Source of the DNA: Anaerococcus ihuae
GTDB taxonomy: Bacteria > Bacillota > Clostridia > Tissierellales > Peptoniphilaceae
Length of the DNA stretch: 64,000 bases
NCBI RefSeq assembly: GCF_928368155.1
Contig: NZ_CAKMRU010000001.1
Span: 688,001 to 752,000, forward strand
Reading direction: 5' to 3'
Made by a program: the position numbers and the translations under genes. The notes beneath the pieces were generated by a model. That model worked only from the letters and a program-made list of their open reading frames with translations. It searched no databases and had not been told where the DNA came from. Below are positions 1 to 4,675 of this stretch, piece after piece. The first letter of the stretch is position 1. Every line of letters begins with the position of its first letter.

Positions 1-103
1 GTTTTAAATCTCCAACCGTAACCATTTCTCTAATTTTTAAATCAGATGCATCTCTAGCCTCAATTACTGGACCATTTATTGTTTTAATTGTTGGAGTCAT
101 CAT
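1..103 (-). CDS. ntpA: V-type ATPase catalytic subunit A, N-terminal fragment (runs off the window)
   Basis: Only about the first 33 codons are visible. They begin with two adjacent ATG codons at about 103 and 100 and encode a start like MTPTIKTINGPVIEARDASD. This is the conserved N-terminal beta-barrel opening of the V/A-type ATPase A subunit, the catalytic nucleotide-binding subunit of the V1 head. The start overlaps the 3' end of subunit E by some 17-20 bases, so translation is probably coupled. The gene order E then A fits a V-ATPase operon. The Walker motifs lie outside the window and could not be checked. Confidence 0.8.
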   Translation of the reverse strand, partial: MMTPTIKTINGPVIEARDASDLKIREMVTVGDLK

Positions 104-704
104 TATCCTCCATTTCTTTTTCAAATTCGTCAGAAATTATTTTATAAAATTTACTTCCAATTTCGTATTTATAATTATCTAATTTTTTTTCTAAGGAATA
201 GTCATATTGGTAGGTTAAATCTTTATTTTTTATAATAAATCCACCAATTTTTGAATCATCCATTATATCTGTATGAAAATCAAACAAATCTTGGTCGGAT
301 TTTTTAACGCATAAAATTAAATCTTTATTATTTTCTGATAAATTTTTATATACTTCATTTGCTTCTTTTACAAGTTTCTTTTTGTATTCATCACTATTAC
401 TGTAGGTTTTCAACTCTTTTTTAATCTCTTCAATTAATTGGGATAATAGTGATTGGTTAAATTTGTAATAAGAAGTCTTTTTGATTTGAGAAATATTTGC
501 TATCTTTTCATTTTTTCTCGCTTTAGCAAATTCTTCTCTTTTTTCCATATATTTATTATAATTATTTTCTAAATTATTTTTTATTTCGTTTAAAGTTTTT
601 GAAGAATATTCAGTTGAGTCATACAATTGCTTTTCGCTTTTTCTTTTTTCGTTTGACCAAACCATCTTTCTAAAACTTGAAATTTTTGCACTTAAATCAA
701 GCAT
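84..704 (-). CDS. ntpE: V-type ATPase subunit E (peripheral stalk)
   Basis: This 206-residue, lysine- and glutamate-rich protein has a long N-terminal helical, coiled-coil-prone half (about residues 1-110) and a C-terminal alpha/beta half (about 110-195). That is the layout of the V/A-ATPase E subunit, which pairs with subunit G/H to form the peripheral stalk linking the catalytic head to subunit I. It sits between subunit F and subunit A, as expected. Sequence conservation in this family is weak, so the call rests on size, architecture and operon position. No separate G/H gene is visible nearby (see the gene at 2821). Confidence 0.8.
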   Translation of the reverse strand: MLDLSAKISSFRKMVWSNEKRKSEKQLYDSTEYSSKTLNEIKNNLENNYNKYMEKREEFAKARKNEKIANISQIKKTSYYKFNQSLLSQLIEEIKKELKTYSNSDEYKKKLVKEANEVYKNLSENNKDLILCVKKSDQDLFDFHTDIMDDSKIGGFIIKNKDLTYQYDYSLEKKLDNYKYEIGSKFYKIISDEFEKEMEDNDDSNN

Positions 705-956: not shown

Positions 957-1382
957 TTAAGCGAATAAAATCATTATAGAAATAATTACACCAAAGATTG
1001 CAATACCTTCAGCAAGTCCTACAAAAATTATTGTTCTACCAAGAATTGAAGCATCTTCTGATATAGCTCCAAGAGCAGCTGATCCTACTTGGCCTACTGC
1101 ATATCCTGTACCAATTGTTGCAAGACCTGTTGATAAAGCTGCACCAATATATTTTAAACCATTTGAAGCTTGGCTAGCATTTCCCGCTGCAGCTGCCTTT
1201 ACACCGTTTGGTAAAACTAAAACCAAAATCATTACCATTATTGGTAAAAATGTAGATAAATTAATTTTTAATGCTTTTCTAATTTTTTCTTTTGATGAAT
1301 CTTTGTTGTTTTTTAATAGGTATAAACCTGAATAAATTGTAATTACTACGCAAGCTAATGCTAATATTGAAATTAAAATCAT
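957..1382 (-). CDS. ntpK: V-type ATPase subunit K (membrane rotor ring, c subunit)
   Basis: The 141-residue protein has four hydrophobic segments, at about 2-23, 41-60, 75-105 and 115-140. The last two form the canonical c-subunit hairpin: a glycine/alanine-rich helix (ATIGTGYAVGQVGSAALGA, about 89-107) and a helix with the ion-carrying glutamate in GLAEGIAIFG (E125). The first two segments are an N-terminal extension rather than a second clear ion-binding hairpin. Several copies would form the rotor ring against which subunit I works. Gln98 beside the carboxylate could indicate Na+ coupling, but that is inference. The start follows a good ribosome site (aaggagatagta before ATG). Confidence 0.88.
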   Translation of the reverse strand: MILISILALACVVITIYSGLYLLKNNKDSSKEKIRKALKINLSTFLPIMVMILVLVLPNGVKAAAAGNASQASNGLKYIGAALSTGLATIGTGYAVGQVGSAALGAISEDASILGRTIIFVGLAEGIAIFGVIISIMILFA

Positions 1383-1392
1383 TACTATCTCC

Positions 1393-2805
1393 TTATAATT
1401 TACTTATTGGACTAAACTTTTGTCCATCTCCCTTATAATATTTACTAAACATTTCGTAAAATTCTAACCTTAATCCTTGAATAAAAACTATCATCCCTTC
1501 AAGACCAATAATTAAAATATTTCCTAGTATTAAAATTATTATTCCTATAAATCCACCACCAACAAGTTTACTCATAACTTCAAATGCCATATATAAACCA
1601 ACGTGATTTATTGCAAAAGCACCAACCCTTGTAAAGGAAACTAAATTTGAGAAAACTGAAAGCAAGGCTTCAATTATAGAAAATGAACTTTCTATATAAT
1701 AATCAGAACTTGACTTGTCATAAATTGGATGTATATCTAAAAGCTTTCTTGAAATTGGTTGCTTAAATATCATTAAAACTATTGATAAGATAAGCGAAAT
1801 TATTGAAACAGGCATAGGTATCGGATTTACTTTTACTATATTTAATATGATTAAAATAAATGAAATCATCATAATTAATCCTGCTATACCTTCTTTTCCA
1901 AAAAATCCTTCTTCCAAATCTTTTTGCTTGTGAAGTTTATTATATATTCCTAAAATATAGGATATAAAAAGCAAAATAACTCCAAAAGCAACCGAAGCAA
2001 CTAAAACTTTTAGAATATTATCGAATGGTTTTATTAATAATGTTGGTATCAAATCTTCAATTCCAAAAAATGACCCATACATCAAGCCAAAAAATGATGC
2101 TGAAAATCCTATTCTTCTCACTAATTGACCAAAGATTTTATTTTTCTTTTCTATTAAAAAGCTAGCTAGAACAAATATAAGACCTTGTCCCAAATCTCCA
2201 AACATCAATCCATACAAAAGCATATAAGTTATTGCAAAAAATCCTGTTGGATCAAGTTCATTGTAATTTGGAGCACCATACATATTTACTAAAAATTCAA
2301 AGGGTCTAGCTATCTTATTGTTTTTTAACTTAGTGGGTGGATTGGCTATTGTCTGGCTATTTTTTTTTTGATCGACTAAGCTGTCTTCATACTTGTCGAC
2401 TGTATCCTTAACCACTTGTAATTTTGATTGTGGTACCCATCCTGATAAATAAAAATATTTTCTTCCCTTAAGCATTTTATCCTTAAGTTTAGAAGATTTT
2501 TTATAAAAATCAATTGTTTTTGGAAGATTTTTCAAATCATCTATATTTTCTTCCTTGATTTTTTCAAGTTTTTTATTTACTTCTTCGAGCTTTTCTTGAT
2601 TTTCTTTATATTCTTTTTTTATTTGCTCAAGACTTGATTTTTCTGGAATTTCCTTATCAATAAAACCAAGCGATGATATTGTTCTATTTACTTCATCTTC
2701 TACACTTTTAGGATAAACTAAGAGGTAGTCTTCATTACCACTTTCAATTGATTGGTTTAAATTATTATTCTTATCTTTAAAGCCCAATCTCTCCAATAAT
2801 TTCAT
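1393..2805 (-). CDS. ntpI: V-type ATPase subunit I, C-terminal half (membrane stator)
   Basis: The 470-residue protein holds the second half of the cytoplasmic domain (about 25-165) and the full membrane domain (about 190-455). It has the signature segment LMFGDLGQGLIF after the first membrane helix, the SFTRVGAFA segment, and the conserved proton-path arginine in IQGLRLEF (R446). Subunit I (a-type) normally has 600-700 residues and starts with an MxxVKM motif. That start is missing here but is found on the upstream gene at 2821-3693, from which this gene is separated by 15 bases with its own ribosome site. The pair therefore looks like a split subunit I. The half has its own ATG and an intact frame throughout. 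Confidence 0.88.
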   Translation of the reverse strand: MKLLERLGFKDKNNNLNQSIESGNEDYLLVYPKSVEDEVNRTISSLGFIDKEIPEKSSLEQIKKEYKENQEKLEEVNKKLEKIKEENIDDLKNLPKTIDFYKKSSKLKDKMLKGRKYFYLSGWVPQSKLQVVKDTVDKYEDSLVDQKKNSQTIANPPTKLKNNKIARPFEFLVNMYGAPNYNELDPTGFFAITYMLLYGLMFGDLGQGLIFVLASFLIEKKNKIFGQLVRRIGFSASFFGLMYGSFFGIEDLIPTLLIKPFDNILKVLVASVAFGVILLFISYILGIYNKLHKQKDLEEGFFGKEGIAGLIMMISFILIILNIVKVNPIPMPVSIISLILSIVLMIFKQPISRKLLDIHPIYDKSSSDYYIESSFSIIEALLSVFSNLVSFTRVGAFAINHVGLYMAFEVMSKLVGGGFIGIIILILGNILIIGLEGMIVFIQGLRLEFYEMFSKYYKGDGQKFSPISKL

Positions 2806-2820
2806 AAAACCTCCTTTCTC

Positions 2821-3693
2821 CTAACTAATTATTTTTTCAAAAAATTCTTTGACTATACTATCTTTCGTAGACTCAAAAATCTTTCCACTTTCTGATTTTC
2901 TCTTGTCATAGAATTTTTCTATTTCTTTATTTTTCAAGTCAGCTTGTTTTAAAATATCATCATAAATTTTACTAGAATCATCTTTAGTTTTCTTTTCATA
3001 TTGTTTTGTCAAATCAATACTTACATTGTTGACGTTATCTTTTTCATTTTTGATAATATTATCAGTATCATATCTTAATTTGCTTGTTTCATCATCAATG
3101 CTATAAATACTCTTTAATGCTTCTTTATTTATATTAATATCAGGATCATTTTTTTGTAAGTGAATGATTAATGACGGTATAGATTCATAGTTATTTTTCA
3201 AAATAAACCTACCATCCTTACTTACTTCCCCAAGCCTATAGTTAAAATAATTAAGATTTCTTATCTTATTAATATCTATTTCTTCATTTTCCAAGGCTTG
3301 TAGGTTATTAATGTATTGTTCGAGCTTTTTGTTTCTTTCTTCTAATTCTTTTTTCTTTTCTATATTTTCTTCAAAAACTTTTAATAAATCTCTAAGTTTT
3401 TCTTCATTAATTCTTTTACCCTCAGATGAATCTTCAAGGTTTAAAAATTCTTTTATATCCTCAAGATCTTTTATAAAGGAAGAATCAGTTTTTTCAAAAC
3501 TTTCCAAATCATTAAAATCTTCAGTTTTATCAATATTTTCTTCACTTGCCCTAATAGAAAATTCCCTGTTTTGTATTTGTCTAAAAGCATCAACTTGGTC
3601 AAATTCATCTATATCTATCAAATCTTCAAGAAAATCATCTAGGTTTTCAAGTCTTGCCATAATATTAACCAAGTGCATTTTTTCGACAGCCAT
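2821..3693 (-). CDS. V-type ATPase subunit I N-terminal half fused to a G/H-like peripheral-stalk coiled coil
   Basis: Residues 1-182 look like the first half of the cytoplasmic arm of subunit I. They start MAVEKMHLVNIMARLENLDD, continue with a charged coiled coil (about 95-140), and reach a segment NYFNYRLGEVSKDGRFIL that matches the usual F-x-(F/Y)-R-x-G-x-(V/L)-x-K-x-G stretch before the arm folds back. The remaining 85 residues (about 205-290) are a second charged helix ending ESTKDSIVKEFFEKII, which resembles the end of V-ATPase subunit G/H. The usual G/H gene is absent from the cluster, so a fusion of I-N with G/H is inferred. The gene lies between subunit C (4 bases) and the rest of subunit I. 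Confidence 0.7.
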   Translation of the reverse strand: MAVEKMHLVNIMARLENLDDFLEDLIDIDEFDQVDAFRQIQNREFSIRASEENIDKTEDFNDLESFEKTDSSFIKDLEDIKEFLNLEDSSEGKRINEEKLRDLLKVFEENIEKKKELEERNKKLEQYINNLQALENEEIDINKIRNLNYFNYRLGEVSKDGRFILKNNYESIPSLIIHLQKNDPDININKEALKSIYSIDDETSKLRYDTDNIIKNEKDNVNNVSIDLTKQYEKKTKDDSSKIYDDILKQADLKNKEIEKFYDKRKSESGKIFESTKDSIVKEFFEKIIS

Positions 3694-3697
3694 ATTA

Positions 3698-4675
3698 TCA
3701 CCTCTTTATTATATAATGCTTCTTTTCGTCCTTATCAAAAGTTTGATCAAATTCTAGAATACTAGTTATATTTTTATTTGAAATTGTCATCATATCAACT
3801 ATATAAATCAATTTTAATAAATCATACTTTGAATTTTCCAATTTTTTGGAATTTTCACTTAATAAATCTTCTTTTGCCTTATAAAAATTATAGGTCGATA
3901 AGAATAAATCTTTATATTGACTATTTAAAATTTCTTCTTTAAACTCATTCAATGTTAAATTTGACAATTTCTTTAAATCATCTGTTTTCAAATATTTACC
4001 ACCCTCAATCAAATAATTAAATATCTCATAATTATTTAATACAAAGTAGTTTTTCAACCTAAATAACATCTCTATATTGAAAATATCAATCTTTCTTCCA
4101 ATAAAATCTCTAAGATTACTGTCTATTTTTTTTGGAAGTTTTTTACATTCATCCAAAAGATCCCTATAATAAAATTTATTTAGAGCATTGGAAATTAGAA
4201 ATATTATTGAATCCCTTTCCATGTTTTCATTTAAAAACGGTAAGAGGGTTCTATAATATCTTGTTGGCTTTGATTTTTCGATGAAACTTTTAAAATCATC
4301 ATCTTTTGACACATTTATATCATGAGAAAATTTTTCTCTTTTAATAATATCCAAACTGTCAGTTAAATGGTCATTGATTATAGCTTGAATTATTAATTGC
4401 ATAAGCTGAACTTCAAAACTTGAAATATATTTTAAAAAGAAATTTTTCTCTTCACCTTTTAAAAATTTCAAAAATGAATGTATATCATCATATAATTTGT
4501 TTGAAAGATAAATTTCTAAATCTTTTTTCGAATTTACATTAGGTATTTCACTGTTATTATTTCGAATTACATCTATTTTTCTTTCAAAACTATCTTCATA
4601 TAATAAATCTCTGCAAATTTCTTTGCTAGGTAATTTGCCATATTTAGCTTTTGCCCTAACTACATAAGCTTTCAT
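3698..4675 (-). CDS. ntpC: V-type ATPase subunit C (central stalk cap on the rotor ring)
   Basis: The 325-residue protein is almost entirely helical and polar. It has the features of the V/A-ATPase C (d-type) subunit, a funnel that couples the central stalk to the K ring: a start MKAYVVRAKAKYGKLPSKE, internal pseudo-repeats (for example ISSFEVQLMQLIIQAIIN near 125-142 and KIDIFNIEMLFRLKNYF near 195-211), and the expected length. The segment that places an aromatic/acidic loop, followed by a helix reading 'iEmLfR.K', is typical. It is the first V-ATPase gene of the run, starting 21 bases after the miaB stop, so it may be cotranscribed with miaB. Confidence 0.85.
   Translation of the reverse strand: MKAYVVRAKAKYGKLPSKEICRDLLYEDSFERKIDVIRNNNSEIPNVNSKKDLEIYLSNKLYDDIHSFLKFLKGEEKNFFLKYISSFEVQLMQLIIQAIINDHLTDSLDIIKREKFSHDINVSKDDDFKSFIEKSKPTRYYRTLLPFLNENMERDSIIFLISNALNKFYYRDLLDECKKLPKKIDSNLRDFIGRKIDIFNIEMLFRLKNYFVLNNYEIFNYLIEGGKYLKTDDLKKLSNLTLNEFKEEILNSQYKDLFLSTYNFYKAKEDLLSENSKKLENSKYDLLKLIYIVDMMTISNKNITSILEFDQTFDKDEKKHYIIKR

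Follow-up and report, generated by a model that had tools for sequence, protein, structure and literature searches.

In the V/A-ATPase of Thermus thermophilus, available excerpts of the structural report describe a stator of A3B3E2G2 plus one subunit I/a, with two peripheral stalks of subunits E and G (EG stalks) for each subunit I and a contact between EG and the subunit I arm that is poorly resolved and likely flexible (PMC5758568). EG stalks are characterised by hendecads and right-handed coiling, according to the accessible part of a review (PMC6131620). As far as these accounts go, Thermus subunit I is one chain and G is free and non-covalently bound, and subunit I of Enterococcus hirae (8wci_P) is likewise one uninterrupted chain. 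A natural covalent peripheral-stalk fusion with an internally duplicated domain is found in the b-delta protein of the Mycobacterium smegmatis F-ATP synthase, which differs in being F-type and joining other subunits, b and delta; the excerpts at hand mention no split in its membrane stator subunit (PMC8617483). Here we analyse a 64,000-nucleotide stretch of Anaerococcus ihuae (assembly GCF_928368155.1, contig NZ_CAKMRU010000001.1, positions 688,001 to 752,000; hereafter the window) that carries a V-ATPase cluster in which subunit I, unlike in these enzymes, is encoded as two chains, the first probably fused to the G/H stalk subunit.

The window's cluster lies on the minus strand in the order C, I_N::G, I_C, K, F and E, followed by A, B and D beyond the window (Table 1), and C is preceded by a gene that we take, from its sequence, to be miaB. 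In place of the single polypeptide of ~600–700 amino acids (aa) typical of subunit I, two open reading frames (ORFs) encode 290 aa (I_N::G) and 470 aa (I_C) and subunit I homology breaks between them, bearing out the split proposed in an initial annotation of this DNA. The first ORF stops at TAG 2821–2823 and the second has, as also proposed, a start of its own, ATG 2805 behind AAGGAGG. I_C matches the membrane-domain family PF01496 above cut-off and NF004430 at an expectation value (E) of 3.2e-52, under the whole-protein cut-off of that model, and the two-lobed cytoplasmic arm is complete once both gene products are combined. A profile built from both halves and intact relatives matches residues 1–653 of the 672 in E. 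hirae subunit I (E 4.5e-65). In a MAFFT alignment of 12 two-gene readings with 20 intact relatives (A8), the extra stretch of I_N::G sits in the distal-lobe beta-hairpin turn, between its two strands. The leader with which I_C opens varies freely among relatives.

Profile comparison, hendecad periodicity and gene order support the assignment of this extra stretch, the tail of I_N::G, as a full-length G/H domain. A profile of free G/H genes from 14 relatives, Anaerococcus excluded (A3), aligns end to end with a profile of 10 tails (A4) in hhalign (98.8%, E 1.2e-16, 104 columns), compared with 19.4% and E 0.0012 for the G/H family of a second V-ATPase and 0.7% for subunit E. When 130 family genomes were searched with A3, the tail was the top match in all 31 genomes of the genus (E 1.3e-18 to 4.7e-5) and the rest of those genomes gave no match better than E 0.004, with a profile that is blind to the second V-ATPase's G/H and cannot exclude other G/H genes there. 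Hydrophobic periodicity peaks at 3.70 residues in the tails and 3.68 in free G/H, near 11/3, and none of 300 joint shuffles attains either peak, as would befit the long straight hendecad helix of a G/H subunit. The initial annotation was right that a charged G/H helix follows the subunit I part, but the helix starts near residue 188 and not at 205. Library matches (Pfam, NCBIfam) of the 290-aa protein are weak, and neither it nor its tail is called G/H at cut-off by models of these libraries. Since the free relatives also match weakly, with 6 of 14 hitting NCBIfam V-type ATP synthase subunit H (best E 1.8e-4) and 4 of 14 Pfam V-ATPase_G (best E 0.013), compared with one of 10 tails for the latter (E 8e-4), the curated G/H models appear insensitive for this lineage.

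Gene order points the same way. Other genera of the family and order hold an orthologous cluster, C-I-K-F-E-A, with a G/H homologous to the tail that is, unlike in Anaerococcus, a free gene before C, and with an intact I. This free gene is missing ahead of C at loci that carry the tail, and in the window no separate G/H gene precedes C, the gap between miaB and C being 21 bases, as expected from the earlier remark that the cluster has no G/H gene of its own. Orthologous I is present in 57 family genomes outside genera g1, g61 and g11 (E below 1e-112; hand count), 48 of which have a free cognate G/H at E 1e-5 or better and nine of which fall short (hand count); the I frame is open over 643–671 aa in 56 and over 527 aa in one. 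G/H is no longer a free polypeptide but is joined to I_N in every one of the 33 Anaerococcus and g61 genomes. The tail is under purifying selection, with ratios of nonsynonymous to synonymous substitution rates (dN/dS) of 0.055–0.159 in nine of 10 species pairs and saturation in one, and dN/dS is below 0.21, where computable, in the I_N body, I_C arm and membrane domain, first arm copies (below) excepted.

Among the genomes searched, the fusion is confined to a narrow lineage. At E 0.01 or better, the I_N::G protein matches 62 of 101 related genomes, 31 of them genus members; the named relatives are Anaerococcus species, A. jeddahensis nearest. In the other 31, the protein mostly matches the N-terminal end of a subunit I encoded by a single open frame of 645–677 aa, and in seven (G032, G049, G053, G054, G074, G079, G083) residues ~187–289 are matched by a small, separate ORF lying upstream. 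I_N::G is matched at full length in 31 of 31 genus genomes, all with the split and the ~100-residue extra domain, and its ORF is open in all except G013, where frameshifts break it. Across the order, an I_N::G profile finds matches in 123 of 249 genomes at E 1e-10, and the fusion is present in 33, of which 31 belong to the window's genus and two to g61; in a class-wide sample, 50 of 391 match at E 1e-8 and only the three Anaerococcus carry it. Among 54 other named loci, I is an open frame of at least 600 aa in 52 and is cut by contig ends in two; in genus g11 the gene falls on contig ends, as in G040. A membrane-domain tree of 28 split and 6 intact proteins places the split proteins in one clade (support 100/99), which fits a single origin.

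We put at roughly 0.86 the probability of the following account, in which the Anaerococcus stator arm is built from two genes, the first fused to a G/H stalk helix. From an ancestral cluster G/H-C-I-K-F-E-A, still seen in relatives, the G/H gene would have left its position before C and entered the distal-lobe beta-hairpin turn of subunit I, and the remainder of subunit I would have gained translation from its own start. One product, I_N::G, would then supply half of the stator arm with a G stalk helix growing from its tip, and the other, I_C, the second arm half and the membrane domain. Homology and a proxy model suggest that the two close around each other to restore a complete subunit I. 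The G helix would rise from the arm tip, the site of EG stalk binding in Thermus, and may form with subunit E a right-handed coiled coil that holds the A3B3 head, such that the stalk–arm contact, apparently flexible in the available Thermus account, would become a covalent joint.

The number of such joints per enzyme is less settled. Because G is part of I_N::G, an enzyme with two stalks would have to contain two copies of that chain; every genus genome carries a single I_N::G gene. In 10 of 28 I_C proteins examined, nine from the genus and one from g61, the whole 142-residue half-arm is tandemly copied ahead of the membrane domain, with copies 31–58% identical; the other 18, the window's included, have a single half-arm. 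In the tree, eight of the nine first copies from the genus form one group (100/100), the L072 first copy is joined to the second copy of the same protein (94/97) and the two g61 copies fall separately, though weakly supported (88/56), a pattern suggesting that duplication may have arisen twice. First copies evolve faster yet are constrained (dN/dS 0.16–0.41, 4 pairs). Our tentative proposal, which we hold at a little under even odds, is that the split allows a pair of arms on a single membrane anchor: each enzyme would contain two identical I_N::G chains, each of them supplying half an arm and one G, both EG stalks would be covalently continuous with the stator arm, and the duplicated docking half-arm, present in the octavius-nagyae-provencensis group and one related-genus genome, would seat each copy to give a two-armed rotary ATPase. 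Alternatively, one I_N::G and one I_C would make up a single arm with one G and a single EG stalk, resembling F-type enzymes, which have one stalk; this 1:1 assembly is the simplest and suits the 18 single half-arm proteins, but the Thermus relative carries two stalks (PMC5758568, in part) and the docking half-arm is duplicated in the other 10, and we regard it as a credible but rather doubtful account. It is compatible with a two-gene arm fused to G, from which it differs only in stoichiometry. Docking of two identical I_N::G chains is our preferred reading for species with a duplicated I_C, and the window's species may use either one or two copies.

Related arrangements occur elsewhere. A genome of another family of the order, G226, encodes a 468-aa protein (L163:2278–3684) that comprises the whole soluble subunit I arm, the membrane domain being absent, and a G/H-like C-terminal tail; this tail scores 169 locally against the genome's own free G/H, with a maximum of 78 for 500 shuffled tails. 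Like I_N::G, it is a subunit I arm bearing a C-terminal G/H-like tail, but it holds the whole soluble arm and adjoins a free G/H and an intact 648-aa I. Such a fusion is present in one of 28 genomes of that family and is probably independent, because the fusion point differs and the family is another. In genus g34, three genomes (G063, G093, G238) encode an additional 344-aa arm that lacks both the membrane domain and G. Together, these cases suggest that extra arms and arm–G fusion probably arose more than once.

The window's genome encodes a second V-ATPase on another contig (L149:4251–12000, order G/H-I-K-E-C-A-B) with an intact 646-aa I and a free 107-aa G/H (L149:4251–4574), and a separate G/H gene is therefore present in the genome; among the matching loci, L154 and L155 show an F gene that is not listed for L149. 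This gene, together with the failure of Pfam and NCBIfam to call the window's tail G/H, weighs against assigning the tail as the cluster's G/H subunit, as the tail could be a generic coiled coil and the second cluster's G/H could possibly act in trans. The sequence evidence opposes this: the tail is far closer to the free G/H of its own cluster type than to the other G/H family, over its full length and with the same period, it is under purifying selection, and it is the best match in every genus genome whereas non-fusion family genomes mostly have the free cognate gene. Of the two observations that the initial annotation had said would together count against it, a separate G/H gene exists and a tail unlike G/H does not, and we judge action in trans improbable.

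Readthrough of the I_N::G stop codon, giving one chain of ~766 residues, is more improbable still. Among 25 unbroken rows of I_N::G/I_C pairs (L056 and L132 being one record and L031 the window's own genome; L053, L071 and L074 left out for frameshifts in I_C and L131 because the script did not recognise it), both ORFs share a frame in 18, as readthrough would require, but are shifted by one in three and by two in four, and these differences indicate that the ORFs are separate. The first stop varies among TAA, TAG and TGA, one pair is 102 bases apart, the earliest possible I_C starts overlap the I_N::G end in two rows, and a loose ribosome-site motif precedes one of the first two I_C starts in 24. 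Readthrough would also require the arm to resume directly at the far end of a 104-residue helix. Least credible of all is a single subunit I gene disrupted by an indel or assembly error: subunit D, outside the window, is indeed scattered across three frames in the window's assembly, and I_C is frameshifted in three genus assemblies, but the genus-wide split with its extra domain and the single clade refute it, the indel looked for in relatives was absent, and the original view that a simple frameshift is unlikely holds.

Other subunits of these clusters also vary. Subunit F measures 76–80 aa in the loci read from Anaerococcus, g61 and g11 and 99–104 aa in most of the other relatives read, L034 with 83 aa being an exception; a C-terminal stretch is missing in the lineage carrying the fusion. 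Compared with the two more distant relatives of alignment A6, subunit E of this lineage lacks a short segment towards its C terminus, a deletion that may be connected with the altered stalk. The three-frame subunit D (L031:4369–4985), which reflects either assembly error or decay, is an open frame of 214–219 aa in the genus relatives G001, G006 and G020, and no such frame was found in the stretch taken from G016.

Table 1. Features of the V-ATPase cluster in the window, with related arm variants at other loci
Feature	Position	Strand	Basis
Subunit C	3698..4675	-	PF01992 E 2.6e-31
I_N::G gene, 290 aa, subunit I first half with putative G/H stalk helix	2821..3693	-	
I_N part, residues ~1-185: proximal-lobe half, ascending helix, distal-lobe half	3139..3693	-	alignment with intact subunit I; proxy model
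Putative G/H tail, residues ~188-290, within single predicted helix 186-289	2824..3132	-	
I_C ribosome-binding site AGGAGG	2810..2815	-	direct reading
I_C gene, 470 aa, remainder of subunit I	1393..2805	-	PF01496 E 1.4e-29
I_C N-terminal leader, residues 1-24, non-conserved	2734..2805	-	
I_C half-arm, residues ~25-167: distal-lobe half, descending helix, proximal-lobe half	2305..2733	-	
Subunit I membrane domain, in I_C	1396..2304	-	
Subunit K (ring subunit)	957..1382	-	PF00137 E 4e-15
Subunit F, 78 aa	719..955	-	
Subunit E, expected partner of G tail	84..704	-	PF01991 E 3e-4 (below cut-off); NF003049 E 5e-5
Subunit A start, continues past window edge; ORF overlaps E end	1..83	-	
I_C with tandem half-arm copy	L065, L066, L068, L069, L072, L075, L080, L131, L156, L157		
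Extra 344-aa membrane-free arm before intact I	L049:2703-3737; L153:2964-3998; L167	L167: reverse	

The head and membrane parts of this pump thus appear to be joined in a novel manner, which in our judgement bears on how the stator keeps the head in place during rotation and on how stiff the joint at the base of each peripheral stalk must be. Free, fused, doubled and separately fused arms of homologous enzymes can now be compared within one family, where the number and rigidity of stalks thereby become testable.
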